From: a bacterium
GTDB lineage: Bacteria; UBP18; UBA7526
DNA length: 17,592 bases
Reading direction: 5' to 3'
Assembly (NCBI GenBank): GCA_030619985.1
Contig: JAUXAI010000022.1
Span: 1 to 17,592, forward strand
This document shows, piece after piece, positions 9,526-17,592 of this stretch. The notes under the pieces are model-generated. The model was not told the origin of the DNA. It did no database searches and worked only from the letters and a program-made list of their open reading frames with translations. Each line of letters starts with the position of its first letter. The first letter of the stretch is position 1. The position numbers and the translations under genes are program-made.

Positions 9526-10320
9526 ATGGTTAATCCAATAATTTTATCAGTTTCTGTTCTGGGTGGCTTGGGTCTCTTGGCTGGGAGTGGGCTAGCCTAT
9601 GCCTCTAAGAAGTTCGTTTCTAAGATAGACCCTAAAGTAGAGGCAATATTGGAAGCCTTGCCTAGAGCAAACTGCGGGGCCTGTGGATTCGCGGGATGCA
9701 GCGGCTTTGCCAAGGCATTGGTTGAGGAAAAGGCTCAGGCCAATGGTTGCATCCCTGGTGGGGAAGGGGTAGCCAATCAAGTTGCTTCCATTCTGGGAGT
9801 AGAGGTAGAGGTCAGAGAGAAGAGAATCGCCAAGATTCTTTGTTATCATAGAGGAGCATCCCAGACTCAGTTTGACTATCAGGGTCTGGAAAGCTGCCGG
9901 GCAGCGGCCCTCTTATTTGGTGGGGATAAGGCCTGTCTCTACAGCTGTCTTGGACTAGGGGATTGTATCGAAGTCTGCCCCTTCGGGGCCATCACTCTAA
10001 TCAAAGGAAGAATTGAGATTGATGAAGAGAAATGTACTGGATGTGGAAAGTGCATCTCCATCTGTCCCAAGGAGGTAATTGCCTTAGTTCCCGAAGAGAA
10101 GAAAGTCCACGTCCTCTGTAACTCTAAGGATAAGGGAGCCATAGTAAGAAAGATATGCAAGGAAGGCTGCATCGGATGTGGGATCTGTGTCAAGGTCTGT
10201 CCAGAGGGAGCAATAACCCTAAAAGATAATTTAGCTTATATCAATTATGAGAAATGCACAGAGTGCGGGGTCTGTGTCGAAAAGTGTCCCACCCACGTCA
10301 TTGAAATGGTTAATGGTTGA
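9526..10320 (+). CDS. rnfB: Rnf complex Fe-S subunit RnfB (ferredoxin-accepting)
   Basis: 264 residues. RnfB accepts electrons from reduced ferredoxin and passes them to the membrane subunits. Seen: an N-terminal membrane anchor (about 4-26), the 4Fe-4S domain with C50-x2-C53-x4-C58-x16-C75, then a run of ferredoxin clusters: C137/C141/C147/C151, CTGCGKCISICP (170-181), CIGCGICVKVCP (215-226) and CTECGVCVEKCP (244-255). This is the multi-cluster RnfB form. GGAG precedes ATG by 8 nt. The final residues MVNG and the stop lie in a 7-bp tandem array that continues into the spacer. Standing last, rnfB gives the order C-D-G-E-A-B known from clostridia and other anaerobes. Confidence 0.95.
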   Translation: MVNPIILSVSVLGGLGLLAGSGLAYASKKFVSKIDPKVEAILEALPRANCGACGFAGCSGFAKALVEEKAQANGCIPGGEGVANQVASILGVEVEVREKRIAKILCYHRGASQTQFDYQGLESCRAAALLFGGDKACLYSCLGLGDCIEVCPFGAITLIKGRIEIDEEKCTGCGKCISICPKEVIALVPEEKKVHVLCNSKDKGAIVRKICKEGCIGCGICVKVCPEGAITLKDNLAYINYEKCTECGVCVEKCPTHVIEMVNG

Positions 10321-10367
10321 CGGTTTACGGTGTACGGTAAAAACGGTTAACGGGTAAACGGTAAACG
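10306..10367 (+). repeat. 7-bp tandem array spanning the rnfB stop codon
   Basis: Units of ayGGTTA type: ATGGTTA (10306), ATGGTTG (10313), ACGGTTT (10320), ACGGTGT (10327), ACGGTAA (10334), ACGGTTA (10343), ACGGGTAA (10350), ACGGTAA (10358). Two units are coding, and the TGA (10318-10320) crosses a unit boundary. Confidence 0.7.
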
Positions 10368-10395
10368 ACCACTTAAAACATGAGGAGGTATTTCC

Positions 10396-10947
10396 ATGAA
10401 AGTAAGAGTTCCTTTGAATAGGGCAAGTAGGCTTTTGAACCATGGGCCGACAGTATTGATAACCTCCTTTTATAAGGGACGACCAAATGTTCAGACCGTT
10501 GCCTAGAACATGCCCTTGGACTATGATCCCCCAAGGGTAGCTTTGGTGGTCGGAAGCGATAACTACTCCTATGAGTGTATTACCAAGACAGGTGAATTTG
10601 TAATAAATATCCCATCCAAAAAATTATTGGAGAAGACCGTCCAATGCGGGACCATCTCAGGAAGAAAAGTAAATAAATTCAAGAAATTTAAACTGACCCC
10701 CATTCCAGCGAAGAAGGTAAAAGCACCACTCATAAAAGAATGTATTGGCCACCTGGAATGCAAACTCATTAAATCGAAAGTAACCAAAGATTATGACCTT
10801 TTCTTAGCGGATGTGGTATACGCCTGGGCGGAAGAAGGCACATTTACTGATAGATGGCTTATAGAAAAGGAAAGGGCGAAGACCATCCATCATCTCGGTG
10901 GAGAGTACTTCACCTTTCCCAGCAAGGTAAAGATTAGGGAATGGTGA
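10396..10947 (+). CDS. Flavin reductase-like (FMN-binding split barrel) protein interrupted by an in-frame TAG at codon 37
   Basis: A consensus GAGGAGGT (10382-10389) lies 6 nt before ATG 10396. The frame reads MKVRVPLNRASRLLNHGPTV... to TVA at residue 36, then TAG (10504-10506), then NMPLDYDPPRVALVVG and on to TGA at 10945-10947 with no shift. The joined product of 183 codons has normal length for the flavin_reduct family (PF01613; FMN-binding, NAD(P)H-dependent flavin reductases and relatives). Family members as I recall them read TVAW(N/x)MP here, so the TAG replaces a Trp TGG by one transition. Codon use on both sides looks intact. It may be a recent nonsense mutation, a sequence error or a read-through codon. 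An ATG two codons later (10510) would give a 145-residue product without a good ribosome-binding site. It lies directly after rnfB. Confidence 0.8.
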
Positions 10948-10949
10948 CC

Positions 10950-11063
10950 ACAAAGACACAAAAGGAGAAACAAAGACACAAAAAATTTCCATTTTGTGCC
11001 TTTAAGTTAAATTCTGCGTTTTTGCCCTTCGGACCCTGAAGGATCCTCAGGATCCTGAATGGG
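10950..11063. repeat. Direct repeats and hairpin in the spacer before amrB
   Basis: ACAAAGACACAAAA occurs at 10950-10963 and 10970-10983, followed by a partly inverted copy (TTTTGTGCCTTT, 10993-11004). A hairpin AGGATCC-TCA-GGATCCT (11040-11056) is flanked by CCC and GGG, which extend it. No ORF. The amrB ribosome-binding site AAAGGAGG follows at 11071-11078. Confidence 0.6.
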
Positions 11064-11086
11064 CGGTTGCAAAGGAGGGAAAGAGA

Positions 11087-11890
11087 ATGGTAAGAAGAGC
11101 GGTTGTTGCTGGACAGTTCTATAATGGGACAGCGGAGAGTTTGAGGGAACAAGTAAGAAAGTATATCGATGAGAAGGCGAAGAAAGAAGAGGTGATGGGG
11201 GTTTTAGCTCCCCATGCGGGGTTCATGTTCTCTGGCCAGGTGGCAGGAGCCGTCTATTCCCACATAATTTTTCCTGATACCTTTGTCATCCTTGGTCCCA
11301 ATCATACTGGAGCAGGACACCCCTCCGCTATTATGACAAAAGGGAAGTGGCAGACTCCTTTAGGAGAGGTAGAGATTGATTCTGACTTAGCGAGTAAGAT
11401 ATTGGCCAATTCTAAGAGCCTGAGAGAGGATGAGAGGGCCCATTCCTATGAGCATTCTATAGAGGTTCAGCTTCCTTTCTTGCAGTACTTAGGAAAGGAC
11501 TTTAAGTTCGTTCCCATCTGTCTGAGCCACCTCGATTCAGAGGCCTGCCGGGATATTGGGAAAGCAATCGCTCAGGCAATAAAGGAAGAGAAGAAGAAGG
11601 TAGTTATCGTAGCCAGTTCAGATCTCACCCACTATGAGCCACAAGAGGAAGCGAATAGGAAGGACAAGGTTGCCTTAGACGCAGTAATAAAATTGGACCC
11701 GGAGGGATTAATTAACAGAGTAGAGGAACTCAGGATTTCAATGTGCGGCGTTATCCCTACAACCATTATGCTTATGGCAAGTAAAGAGTTGGGCGCCACA
11801 AAGGGCGAGTTAGTAAAATATATGACCAGTGGGGATGTCATCGGCGACTATCGCCAGGTAGTAGGCTACGGCGGAATCCTTGTTAAGTAA
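11087..11890 (+). CDS. amrB: AmmeMemoRadiSam system protein B (MEMO1 family)
   Basis: 267 residues. MEMO-family proteins resemble class III extradiol dioxygenases; in prokaryotes this member co-occurs with an AMMECR1 protein and a radical SAM enzyme in a system of unclear role. Seen: the start RRAVVAGQFYNG, PHAGFMFSG with His43, LGPNHTG with His73, HSYEHSIEVQLPFLQ (119-133), SSDLTHY with His182 and the C-terminal GDYRQVVGYG. The His residues correspond to the putative metal/active-site positions. AAAGGAGG 8 nt before the ATG is a strong initiation signal. It is followed after 37 bases by amrS, so a two-gene unit is likely. No AMMECR1 (protein A) gene lies in the window. Confidence 0.92.
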   Translation: MVRRAVVAGQFYNGTAESLREQVRKYIDEKAKKEEVMGVLAPHAGFMFSGQVAGAVYSHIIFPDTFVILGPNHTGAGHPSAIMTKGKWQTPLGEVEIDSDLASKILANSKSLREDERAHSYEHSIEVQLPFLQYLGKDFKFVPICLSHLDSEACRDIGKAIAQAIKEEKKKVVIVASSDLTHYEPQEEANRKDKVALDAVIKLDPEGLINRVEELRISMCGVIPTTIMLMASKELGATKGELVKYMTSGDVIGDYRQVVGYGGILVK

Positions 11891-11894
11891 AAAA

Positions 11895-11926
11895 GTAGGA
11901 AAGTAGGAAAGTAAGAAAGTAGGAAA
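11895..11926 (+). repeat. Octamer array GTAGGAAA x4 between amrB and amrS
   Basis: GTAGGAAA at 11895, 11903 and 11919, and GTAAGAAA at 11911: four units in perfect 8-bp register, starting 5 nt after the amrB stop and ending one base before the amrS ATG. The last unit supplies the only ribosome-binding-like AGGA of amrS. Same octamer family as at 4102, 12903 and 16523. Confidence 0.9.
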
Positions 11927-11927
11927 G

Positions 11928-12914
11928 ATGAAAGAAGCACTATATTACGAGAAGGTAGATGACAAGATAAAGTGCCTTCTATGTCCCAAGGAGTGTCTCA
12001 TTGCTCCGGGAAAGAGGGGATTCTGCAGGGGAAGGAAGAATGTGGATGGAAGGTTAATTGCCTTAACCTATGGGGAGTGCGTTTCAATTGCTGTCGACCC
12101 CATAGAGAAGAAGCCCTTGTATCACTTCCATCCTGGCTCCTTAATCCTCTCCTGCGCTCCCAATGGCTGTAACTTCACCTGCGTTTACTGCCAGAACTGG
12201 ACTATTTCTCAGGAGGAGACCCCCACCCAACATGTCACTTCTCAAGAAATGGTGGAACTTACTCTGAAGAAGGACTCTGTGGGAATTGCTTATACCTATA
12301 CCGAGCCTTTAATCTGGTATGAGTATCTCTTGGAGACAGCGAAGTTAGCAAAAGAGAAGGGGCTGGCCAATGTCCTGGTTACCAATGGCTACATTAACCC
12401 CGAGCCCTTTGAGGAACTTCTCCCCTATATCGATGCTATAAATATCGATGTCAAGGCCATGAAGGAATCATTCTATGAGGAATACTGCAAGGCCACCCTC
12501 TCCCCAGTCTTACAGACGGCAGAGAAAGCAAGGAAAGCCTGCCATGTGGAGATCACTAATCTCATCATCCCTACCTTAAATGATTCTGAAGAAGATTTTA
12601 AAAAACTAGTCGATTGGATAGCAGATGAGTTAGGGGATGATACCCCTTTACACTTCTCAAGATATTTTCCGGCTTATAAGTTGAATATTCCACCCACTCC
12701 AGTAACTACCTTAGAGAAAGCGAGGGAAATAGCCCAGAAGAGATTAAAGCATGTCTATATCGGAAATATCTTAGATCCCAGTGCCAATACCACCTATTGT
12801 CCGAAGTGTAAGAAGGCCTTAATCGTACGTGATGGATACTCTATCTCCAGGATGCATCTGAAAGGGAAGAGATGCCAGTATTGCGGGGAGGAGATTAACA
12901 TAGTGAGAAAGTGA
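11928..12914 (+). CDS. amrS: AmmeMemoRadiSam system radical SAM enzyme
   Basis: 328 residues, pyruvate formate-lyase-activase-like (COG1180) branch. Seen: an N-terminal Cys cluster C16-x2-C19-x3-C23-x9-C33 typical of this family; the radical SAM motif C81-N-F-T-C85-V-Y-C88 (Cx3Cx2C) followed by QNW, binding the [4Fe-4S]/S-adenosylmethionine pair; AYTYTEPLIWYEY (about 123-135); VTNGYINPEPF; DVKAM; and a C-terminal zinc-ribbon-like pair CPKC ... CQYC. Length fits the family. The protein substrate is unknown; the consistent partners are MEMO and AMMECR1 proteins. The final codons and stop are in an octamer array. It closes the segment beginning at amrB. Confidence 0.92.
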   Translation: MKEALYYEKVDDKIKCLLCPKECLIAPGKRGFCRGRKNVDGRLIALTYGECVSIAVDPIEKKPLYHFHPGSLILSCAPNGCNFTCVYCQNWTISQEETPTQHVTSQEMVELTLKKDSVGIAYTYTEPLIWYEYLLETAKLAKEKGLANVLVTNGYINPEPFEELLPYIDAINIDVKAMKESFYEEYCKATLSPVLQTAEKARKACHVEITNLIIPTLNDSEEDFKKLVDWIADELGDDTPLHFSRYFPAYKLNIPPTPVTTLEKAREIAQKRLKHVYIGNILDPSANTTYCPKCKKALIVRDGYSISRMHLKGKRCQYCGEEINIVRK

Positions 12915-12942
12915 GAAAGTGGGCAGGTGGGAAAGTGGAAAA
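12903..12942 (+). repeat. Octamer array spanning the amrS stop codon
   Basis: GTGAGAAA (12903), GTGAGAAA (12911), GTGGGCAG (12919), GTGGGAAA (12927), GTGGAAAA (12935), in exact 8-bp register. The amrS TGA (12912-12914) is inside the second unit. The unit GTGGGCAG resembles GTGAGCAG of the 4102-4141 array. Confidence 0.85.
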
Positions 12943-13010
12943 GGTAAAATAGTGAAAAATGCAAAATGAAAAATTAGCAATGCAAAATGCAAAATTACTT
13001 CCTACTTTTT

Positions 13011-13063
13011 ACTTGTCAACTTGTATTCTTATTAACTTGTTAACTATCTGAACGGAGTGAGGA
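13011..13063 (+). repeat. Leader block shared with the PpiD-like gene upstream region
   Basis: ACTTGTCAACTT (13011-13022) equals the complement of 16297-16308. The 24 bases 13040-13063 match the complement of 16272-16295 at 21 positions and share the GGAGTG stretch just before the start codon in both places. The two copies differ by 17 extra bases between blocks here. This suggests a duplicated gene leader. Confidence 0.7.
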
Positions 13064-13079
13064 TGAAAGGGATTTTGGA

Positions 13080-13163
13080 ATGAAGAAGTTATTCATTCCA
13101 TTTTTAATAATAGTCCTTGTATTTTTGAGGCATCGGAATTTCAATAAATTCCGATGCCGATGA
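13080..13163 (+). pseudogene. 27-residue signal-peptide-like ORF, probably a gene remnant cut by a palindrome
   Basis: ATG 13080 is preceded by AAGGG 8 nt upstream and encodes MKKLFIPFLIIVLVFL, a lysine start and hydrophobic core like an export signal. The reading frame then enters a perfect 13-bp palindrome (13129-13158) and ends at TGA 13161. The leader before it is related to that of the PpiD-like gene. Most likely the start of an exported-protein gene truncated by the palindrome; a genuine small membrane peptide cannot be excluded. Confidence 0.4.
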
Positions 13164-13308
13164 TTAGAAAATTTGGGGGAAAGAATCTGCTTGCCCCCAA
13201 GGGGTAACAGTGGAGAAATGCGACGTATAGGAACATTTCGGAACGCCAGAGGGGTGAAACCCCTATGGAAGTATTCCCGAAGGGAATATCTTGATGGGGC
13301 AGAAAAGG

Positions 13309-13887
13309 ATGAAGAAACTTTATCTTATTCCTATTGGGGAAGTGGATGGGAAGATACTGGAGGGATTGAAATCCTCTTTAAGAGAGAGGTTCCATTTAGA
13401 GGTTGTAATTGGGGAGGCTCTGCCTAAACCAGATTATGCCTACAATCGAAGAAGAAGACAGTATCATTCCTCACCCATTTTAGATAACCTTTCCCGCCTT
13501 CGCTCTTCCACCCTCCGCAGTAGCAGTACTACTGCTACGGAGGACGGGTCGAGCTTCGGCGGGCAAGCCTATCGGGTATTGGGGGTTACAGAATTAGACC
13601 TTTATGTTTCCAATCTCAACTTCATCTTCGGTCAGGCCCAGATGGGAGGAAGAACTGCTTTAATCTCTCTTGCTCGATTAAGAGAGGAGTTCTGGGGAAG
13701 AAGGCCAAACGAGAGACTGCTTGCCGAAAGGGCCTTAAAGGAAGCGGTCCATGAGCTGGGCCATACCCTTGGTCTGGAACATTGTTCCAATCCAAAGTGT
13801 GTCATGCACTTCTCCAACTCCTTGGCTGATACAGATATAAAGGGCTCCTGGTTCTGTCCAGAATGCGAGAAGAAGATTAGAAAATGA
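13309..13887 (+). CDS. amzA: Archaemetzincin-family zinc metalloprotease with an inserted palindrome-encoded segment
   Basis: 192 residues from ATG 13309 (MKKLYLIPIGEV). The frame is open to 13291, and ATG 13294 is an alternative with AGGG inside a hairpin upstream. The family signature HExxHxxGxxHCx4CxM...Cx2C is complete: HELGHTLGLEH (148-158) for catalytic zinc and Glu149, then CSNPKCVM, and CPEC (183-186) for the second, structural zinc. RVLGVTELDLYV and LNFIFGQAQMGG are also family-typical. About 24 residues rich in Ser, Arg and Thr (about 62-86) have no place in the family and are encoded by the 71-bp palindrome at 13493-13563. Known members are cytosolic aminopeptidase-like enzymes; the role here is unknown. 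The stop overlaps the apbE start by 4 nt. Confidence 0.9.
   Translation: MKKLYLIPIGEVDGKILEGLKSSLRERFHLEVVIGEALPKPDYAYNRRRRQYHSSPILDNLSRLRSSTLRSSSTTATEDGSSFGGQAYRVLGVTELDLYVSNLNFIFGQAQMGGRTALISLARLREEFWGRRPNERLLAERALKEAVHELGHTLGLEHCSNPKCVMHFSNSLADTDIKGSWFCPECEKKIRK
13493..13563. repeat. 71-bp palindromic element inside the amzA reading frame
   Basis: Outer arms CCCGCC (13493-13498) and GGCGGG (13558-13563); inner arms CTCCG (13513-13517) with CGGAG (13538-13542), and TAGCAGTA (13521-13528) with TACTGCTA (13530-13537). The arms between are imperfectly complementary. It keeps the frame open and separates conserved family blocks (ILDNL before, YRVLGVTELDL after). It resembles intragenic palindromic elements such as those of Rickettsia in kind, not in sequence as far as I can tell. 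Confidence 0.8.
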
Positions 13888-14861
13888 TTAAAAAACTTCT
13901 CTTCTTTATCTTAATAGTTATTTTTTTAATTAGTGGTTGCACTCCAAGATTTCCTACTAAGAAAGAGTTCTTGATGGATACTGAAGTGGAGATCATCCTA
14001 CCCCAGGGAGGTGAGGAGGATTTTACCGCTGCCTTTAATGAAATAAAAAGAATTGAGAAATTAATGGATGTCCATAATCCAGAGAGTGAAATCTCTCGAG
14101 TTAATAAATTGGCCGATAAGGAACCGGTTAAAGTTAGCAAAGAGATCTTTGAGGTCTTGAAAGAGGCGCTGAAATATAGTAGGCTTACCTCTGGGGCCTT
14201 TGACGTGAGCATTCGTCCCTTGTCTCGTTTATGGGGAGAAAAAGGAAAGTTAAAGGAAGTCCCTGAAATAAAAGAGATAGAGGAAAAATTACTACTGGTC
14301 AATTACAAAAATATCATCTTAAATGAAAGGAATCAGACGGTTGAATTTAGGAGGGAAGGCATGACTATGGATCTGGGGGGGATAGCGAAAGGCTATGCCC
14401 TAGATTGTGTCATAAGAGTTTTAAAGGAAAGGGGAATTAAAGAGGCCTTGATCAATGCCGGCGGAGATATTCGAGTTATGGGAGAAAGAGATTGGAAGGT
14501 CGGCCTGCAACATCCCAGGAAAGAGGACGAGGTTTTGGCAGTAATTAGACCAAGAGACCAAGCAATTGCTACCTCCGGCGATTATCAGAAATACTTTATC
14601 AAAGAGGGTAAGAGATATCACCACATTATCAATCCCGAGACTGGTTATCCTGCTACAGAATGTATGAGTGTAACCATTATCGGACCAAATGCTATTCAGA
14701 CAGATATCCTTGCTACCGGAGTCTTCATTTTAGGTCCAGAGAAGGGAATGGGGCTAATAGAATCCCTAAAGGAAGTTGAAGGAATCATTATCGATACTCA
14801 GGGAAAAATCCTTCTTTCTTCCGACCTAAAAGGAAGATTGCAAATTGACTCTAATATTTAA
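13884..14861 (+). CDS. apbE: FAD:protein FMN transferase (ApbE), lipoprotein
   Basis: 325 residues. ApbE transfers FMN from FAD to the Ser/Thr of [ST]GATx[ST] motifs, as in RnfG, and to RnfD/NqrB-type sites, on the outer side of the cytoplasmic membrane. Seen: a signal peptide ending in the lipobox LISGC (lipidated Cys19), DLGGIAKGYALD (163-174), INAGGDIRVMG (190-200), ATSGDYQKYF (229-238), HHIINPETGYP (246-256) and TDILATGVFILG (273-284) with the Mg-binding Asp. Length is normal. It overlaps amzA by ATGA, so the two are translationally coupled, an unexpected pairing. The likely clients, RnfG and RnfD, lie about 6-7 kb upstream. The gene ends 4 bases before the convergent PpiD-like gene, with no terminator visible between. 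Confidence 0.95.
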   Translation: MIKKLLFFILIVIFLISGCTPRFPTKKEFLMDTEVEIILPQGGEEDFTAAFNEIKRIEKLMDVHNPESEISRVNKLADKEPVKVSKEIFEVLKEALKYSRLTSGAFDVSIRPLSRLWGEKGKLKEVPEIKEIEEKLLLVNYKNIILNERNQTVEFRREGMTMDLGGIAKGYALDCVIRVLKERGIKEALINAGGDIRVMGERDWKVGLQHPRKEDEVLAVIRPRDQAIATSGDYQKYFIKEGKRYHHIINPETGYPATECMSVTIIGPNAIQTDILATGVFILGPEKGMGLIESLKEVEGIIIDTQGKILLSSDLKGRLQIDSNI

Positions 14862-14865
14862 CCCC

Positions 14866-16263
14866 TTACCTTTCTACAGGATAAATTTTAATTTTGGCTC
14901 TTTGATGTAAATCCTGATACCATTGATTATAGACCGTTGCTTTCTTCTTTTGAATAAAGTCTTCAGTAAATGCCTCCCTCTCTTGACTGAATCTTTCCTC
15001 ATCCATTCCTTTTCGTTTGATTACTTTAATGATGTAATAACCATCCCTTCCCCTTAGAGGATCCTTCACTTCGCCCACTTTGAGGCCGAAGGCCTCCTCT
15101 TCAATCTTTCGGGGCAGGTTACTCTCCCCACGCTTGAAAAGACCGGTTCCTTCAACCTCTAAAAAAAACTTTTTAGCCAAAATCTCTAAATCCTCTTTTT
15201 CCATTTCCTTTGTTATTTCTTGAGCCCTTTCTTTCGCGGTCTTCCATCTCTTTTCTTCTTTTAAAGTTCTCTTTATCTTTTCTTTTACTTCTTCTAAGGG
15301 AGGGATGTAAGATTCTTTCCTTTCCTCTAACTTGATGATGTGGTAGCCGAATCTGCTTCTCACCGGGCGAGATATCTGACCTTCTTTCAATCCAAAAGCC
15401 ACCCTCTCAAACTCCTCTACCATATCCCCTTTCTTAAAGAAGCCCAGATCTCCGCCCTTCTCTTTGCTGGGACACTGGGAGAGTTCTTTTGCTAGGCTTT
15501 CGAAATCCTCTCCCGCTTTCGATTTCTTTTTTATCTCTTTTATTTTCTCTGAGGCCTCTTCTCCCTTAACCAAGATATGCCTTACTCTTATCTTCTCTGG
15601 TATCCGGTAATCCTCTTTTTGCTGCTCATAATACTCTTCTACCTCTTCTTTCTCAGTCCTTATATCTTTCTCGGGTTTTATAAGAAGATATTCAATCTCT
15701 ATCTCTTCATTCATTTTTAGATATTCATCCCGGATCTCCTTTTCGCTTATCTCTATCCCATCCAGAATTAGATTCTTCAATTTGGTAATAGAAATTTCCT
15801 TGCTCATCTCCTCTTCAAACTTTTGGGGAGTATATCCCAACCAATCCAGGAGGGCGAAATAGGTCTCTTTATCGAACTTCCCCTCTTTCTGAAAGGCCGG
15901 GTAGCTTTTTATCTCTTTCCTCAATTCTTGATCACTCACCCTAATTCTCTCCCTTTTCGCTTCCTGGAGCAGAAGTTCCCTTTTGATTAAGCTATTTAGC
16001 GCCGCTCCCTCCAGGTTTAAAATCTTTGCCATTTCTTGGTTGAATGCATCCCCCATCCTCTCTCGCATCGCCCGGTAGAGCCCCTCAACTTCCTTGTAAT
16101 AAACCTCTCTTGTGATGCCCTTCCCGTTTACCGAAGCGACCAGGCCTATCCCCCTTTCTCGCAATCCCCCTGTGCCCCACCAGATAAAGGCCGGAATAAT
16201 TAAAATGATGGTAATCCAAAGAATTCTTCTTGCCCTTCTGCGCATGATCTTGAGCATTACCAT
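14866..16263 (-). CDS. PpiD/SurA-like membrane-anchored peptidyl-prolyl isomerase
   Basis: 465 residues from ATG 16263, which has GGGGAGG 6 nt upstream; the frame opens five codons earlier at GTG 16278. The N-terminus is short and basic (RRRARR), then one membrane segment (about 14-29), then a SurA_N-like helical chaperone region (about 40-185), a parvulin PpiC domain (about 226-316: IRVRHILVKG, KGGDLGFFKKGDMVEEF, FGYHIIKLEE) and a second, shorter parvulin-like half (about 363-417: GLFKRG, EEEAFGLKVGEV, GRDGYYIIKV). This resembles PpiD/SurA folding factors of the periplasm for outer-membrane and exported proteins. No lipobox is seen, so the anchor is a transmembrane helix. The only minus-strand gene in the window, transcribed divergently from mreB. 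Confidence 0.88.
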   Translation of the reverse strand: MVMLKIMRRRARRILWITIILIIPAFIWWGTGGLRERGIGLVASVNGKGITREVYYKEVEGLYRAMRERMGDAFNQEMAKILNLEGAALNSLIKRELLLQEAKRERIRVSDQELRKEIKSYPAFQKEGKFDKETYFALLDWLGYTPQKFEEEMSKEISITKLKNLILDGIEISEKEIRDEYLKMNEEIEIEYLLIKPEKDIRTEKEEVEEYYEQQKEDYRIPEKIRVRHILVKGEEASEKIKEIKKKSKAGEDFESLAKELSQCPSKEKGGDLGFFKKGDMVEEFERVAFGLKEGQISRPVRSRFGYHIIKLEERKESYIPPLEEVKEKIKRTLKEEKRWKTAKERAQEITKEMEKEDLEILAKKFFLEVEGTGLFKRGESNLPRKIEEEAFGLKVGEVKDPLRGRDGYYIIKVIKRKGMDEERFSQEREAFTEDFIQKKKATVYNQWYQDLHQRAKIKIYPVER

Positions 16264-16290
16264 AACTTGCCTCCCCACTCCATTCGGATA

Positions 16291-16439
16291 GTTAATAAGT
16301 TGACAAGTTAATAAGTTGATACGTATTTTCGTATTCTCTTATTCTCGTATTTTCTTGTTAACTTGTATCCTTGTTAACTTGTATCCTTGTTAACTTCTGT
16401 CTACTGATCACCGATCGCTGTTCACTGTTCCCCGTTCAC
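16291..16439. repeat. Inverted and tandem repeats in the 5' leader of the PpiD-like gene
   Basis: CTTGTTAACTTGTATC is repeated at 16354-16369 and 16370-16385 with a partial third copy at 16386-16396. On the other side, AAGTTGACAAGTTAATAAG (16297-16315) is roughly its complement, with TATTTTCGTATTCTC words between. Related words appear at 13011-13050. No ORF of note. Confidence 0.75.

Positions 16440-16522: not shown

Positions 16523-17592
<1,070 letters not shown>

Follow-up and report, generated by a model that had tools for sequence, protein, structure and literature searches.

A flavin-reductase-like gene lying directly behind rnfB is interrupted by an in-frame TAG codon, which raises the question of whether this codon is decoded as an amino acid, acts as an ordinary stop, or is an error of the assembly. 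The window, that is, the whole 17,592-nucleotide stretch of DNA analyzed here, is one entire contig of a draft genome (1.25 Mb, 91 contigs, 83.65% complete), the nearest relatives of which are MAGs. On the forward strand, rnfB (9526-10320) is followed by a good ribosome-binding site, a Shine-Dalgarno sequence (gaggaggt) with its spacer at 10380-10395, and then by the flavin-reductase-like gene (PF01613) at 10396-10947, which comprises 183 sense-equivalent codons interrupted by a single TAG. The frame opened by the ATG at 10396 runs through 36 codons, the TAG at codon 37 (10504-10506), and 146 sense codons to a TGA at 10945-10947. The protein obtained by reading through the TAG belongs to the PF01613 family (98.7 bits, against a curated Pfam cut-off of 27), and a PF01613 search of the genome returned 94.3 bits for the gene with the TAG inside, which is the sole PF01613 gene found in the 84% complete assembly. 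In addition, the read-through protein aligns over its full length, across the TAG, with PDB entries 3e4v, 3hmz, and 1eje and with flavoredoxin 3bnk, and the codon 37 position is aromatic (Trp or Phe) in the aligned PDB chains shown. The family match and the 183-residue alignment thus bear out the preliminary description of an in-frame TAG in an otherwise intact flavin-reductase gene after rnfB. The gene is part of a run from 9526 to 14861 that contains rnfB, the flavin reductase, a Memo-family gene, a radical SAM gene, an archaemetzincin-like peptidase (M54), and an ApbE flavin transferase. The intergenic motif CGGTTAACGG, one copy of which is located at 10344-10353, occurs nine times in 366 kb against about 0.7 expected copies, and may represent a dispersed intergenic repeat.

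Comparison with relatives places the change in a single lineage. Orthologues in five same-family genomes share 89-93% protein identity over residues 1-183 and contain no stop, and codon 37 is TGG (Trp) in all five, so that the stop is private to one lineage while the orthologues are intact, as in a single-nonsense pseudogene. In a 20-row alignment of homologues, which includes the window's gene with Trp written in at codon 37 and thus has 19 independent rows, Trp occupies this position in 18 of the 19. The TGG of the relatives and the near-invariant Trp together indicate that the TAG is a lineage-private codon one G-to-A transition away from the expected one, in agreement with the earlier observation that it stands where the family usually has Trp. 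DNA alignments also show that the order rnfB, flavin reductase, Memo-family gene is the same in several relatives.

Identity to the relatives varies along the window. Positions 18-2833 are 95% identical to the relative G002, compared with 82-90% over much of the window, and only three mismatches fall within 144-1246, across a TctA-family permease gene, with identity dropping gradually downstream; this pattern suggests recent between-species recombination or a mixed assembly. Toward the other end, one 200-base bin (16201-16400) reaches 99% identity to G002, and positions 16711-17588, over an MreB-like gene at the contig end, are 94% identical to a second relative, G001, which resembles a mosaic-like switch between relatives.

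Whether TAG serves as a normal terminator in this genome bears directly on how codon 37 would be read. The tally of 18 gene ends in the window given in the preliminary description is exact (11 TAA, 6 TGA, and one TAG, that of rnfG, with a TGA directly after it); however, the rarity of TAG drawn from it does not hold genome-wide. In a 366-kb sample consisting of the tRNA-bearing contigs and others, TAG ends 28 of 182 long ORFs and 35 of 176 gene ends aligned with the end of a relative's gene, and the relative has TAA or TGA at 18 of those 35. Such exchange at aligned ends indicates that TAG is an ordinary stop, interchangeable with the other two. By simple arithmetic, one TAG or fewer among 18 ends has a roughly 20% chance at about 15% TAG usage. 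RF1 is present and intact with its PIT and GGQ motifs, as is an RF2 with SPF and GGQ; neither avoidance of TAG as a terminator nor loss or alteration of RF1 was found.

The same sample was surveyed for further internal stops by comparison with 241 genes of the relatives (about 60,000 codons), with antisense shadow ORFs filtered out. No second TAG lies inside a conserved gene body in this set, so that the TAG at codon 37 stands alone, and the other stops flagged fall, by our reading, ahead of the probable start codon, close to the C-terminus of the frame, or on the antisense strand. The lack of any other internal stop shows that errors are not a general feature of the sampled assembly and that there is no general recoding. 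A general reassignment of TAG was accordingly rejected, given that TAG ends 15-20% of genes, that RF1 is intact, and that no other internal TAG was seen.

A sense reading of the TAG, whether by a suppressor tRNA, as pyrrolysine, through general reassignment, or by programmed hairpin-aided read-through, is very unlikely. It would account for the resumption of conserved coding right after the TAG, and the preliminary description had called for a search for an amber-suppressor tRNA or pyl genes. With RF00005, 42 tRNA genes were recovered from the genome, every one scoring well clear of the cut-off and with no weak tail, and none of the 42 carries a CUA anticodon (ARAGORN on the tRNA-bearing contigs, in an assembly 84% complete); a CUA tRNA was likewise not seen in G002, which is 93% complete, and a suppressor tRNA was rejected on the count of 42 genes. 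Some tRNA genes are nevertheless missing with the unassembled part, as exemplified by tRNA-Trp, which was not found in the assembly, although G002 has one, and is probably encoded in the missing part. Pyrrolysine was rejected as well: PylS remained below the cut-off in all six genomes, with weak matches of a kind seen in all 14 control genomes, and MttB, the pyrrolysine-bearing methyltransferase, is absent. In the portion of a 2021 survey in eLife (PMC8629427) cited here, the bacterial codon reassignments are those of UGA and arginine codons, with UAG not among them. A predicted 9-bp hairpin past the TAG (10511-10539, beginning 7 bases past it; z -2.1) could in principle favor read-through, yet a fold of equal or greater stability is found past 2.3% of coding positions, and past 5% of TGG codons, and some TGG relatives, notably G001 and G002, fold similarly past codon 37, presumably owing to the conserved protein sequence. 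The hairpin is therefore probably incidental and was rejected as a read-through signal. Site-specific read-through inserting Trp or another residue in a redox enzyme beside the Rnf genes, by way of the hairpin or of a suppressor tRNA encoded in the unassembled 16%, is more improbable still. A stop at the TAG followed by a restart at the ATG at 10510, which would yield the reductase in two pieces of 36 and 145 residues, deserves hardly more credence: this ATG, 4 bases past the TAG, opens a 145-aa ORF (10510-10947), but it has no Shine-Dalgarno sequence in front, for which reason reinitiation was rejected, and it corresponds to Met39, conserved in all five close relatives and hence not a new start, while the downstream piece would have neither the near-invariant Trp nor the first strands.

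Two readings with an ordinary stop in the assembled sequence carry most of the weight, and we consider it narrowly probable that the TAG is a fresh, real nonsense mutation. A single recent G-to-A transition would have replaced TGG, the codon of the near-invariant Trp37, by an amber stop, in the organism or in one of its strains; RF1 would then end translation after 36 residues and release a short dead peptide, the flavin reductase would probably be lost, and the change would be too young for decay to have set in elsewhere in the gene. The reality of the base and the loss of function are what we infer from the base in the assembly, the stop-free orthologues with TGG at a near-invariant Trp, the intact RF1, the normal use of TAG as a terminator, the isolation of this TAG among the 241 genes, and the failure to detect a CUA tRNA, PylS above its cut-off, or MttB. 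The preliminary description had held that abundant TAG stops and no suppressor tRNA would favor a plain pseudogene, and this combination is what the 84% complete assembly contains. It had said the same of a decayed downstream half, for which no indication was found in private changes or in dN/dS relative to the relatives: the lineage-private base changes downstream of the TAG are eight synonymous and two conservative non-synonymous ones (I52V and D93N), compared with 6-11 synonymous and 0-8 non-synonymous private changes in the other lineages, and pairwise dN/dS downstream is near 0.03-0.06. An old pseudogene was thus rejected and, with the downstream half intact, the change is of very recent date, a variant of one strain or otherwise polymorphic, or a consensus error. 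It is quite conceivable, if short of probable, that a wrong consensus call at one base, or a base from a minor strain, put the TAG into a metagenome assembly and that the true gene has TGG and is intact. The window belongs to a draft of 91 contigs with MAGs as nearest relatives, the gene is undecayed both before and after the TAG, and the lack of any sign of relaxed selection fits an error equally well. Moreover, the Trp is near-invariant, and the loss of the sole PF01613 gene found, one kept behind rnfB in the relatives, might be costly, which argues against a real nonsense mutation. However, no other stop was clearly seen inside a conserved gene body in about 60,000 codons, and it is this cleanness of the rest of the sampled assembly that leads us to lean slightly toward the real mutation. 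Collectively, the fresh nonsense mutation and the sequence error considered in the preliminary description are both supported, whereas read-through and recoding are not, given that TAG is a common stop and no suppressor tRNA was found.

A one-base nonsense change is an ordinary finding, of value mainly as a caution: when a draft MAG shows a single in-frame TAG, recoding should be proposed only once reads, the tRNA complement, and TAG usage across the genome have been inspected. Should the base prove real, the locus would capture a gene just as it is being lost, next to a conserved Rnf cluster. Compared with known systems, the gene resembles those of pyrrolysine and amber suppression in that an in-frame UAG is followed by conserved codons, but differs in its Trp site, in the normal use of TAG as a terminator, and in the lack of PylS over the cut-off, MttB, or a CUA tRNA. 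It aligns over its full length with the FMN-binding split-barrel family PF01613, differing by one TAG codon. Unlike recently inactivated, single-nonsense pseudogenes, it bears no further decay and its TAG is known from the assembly only, whereas it shares with them one stop in a conserved frame and intact orthologues in its relatives.
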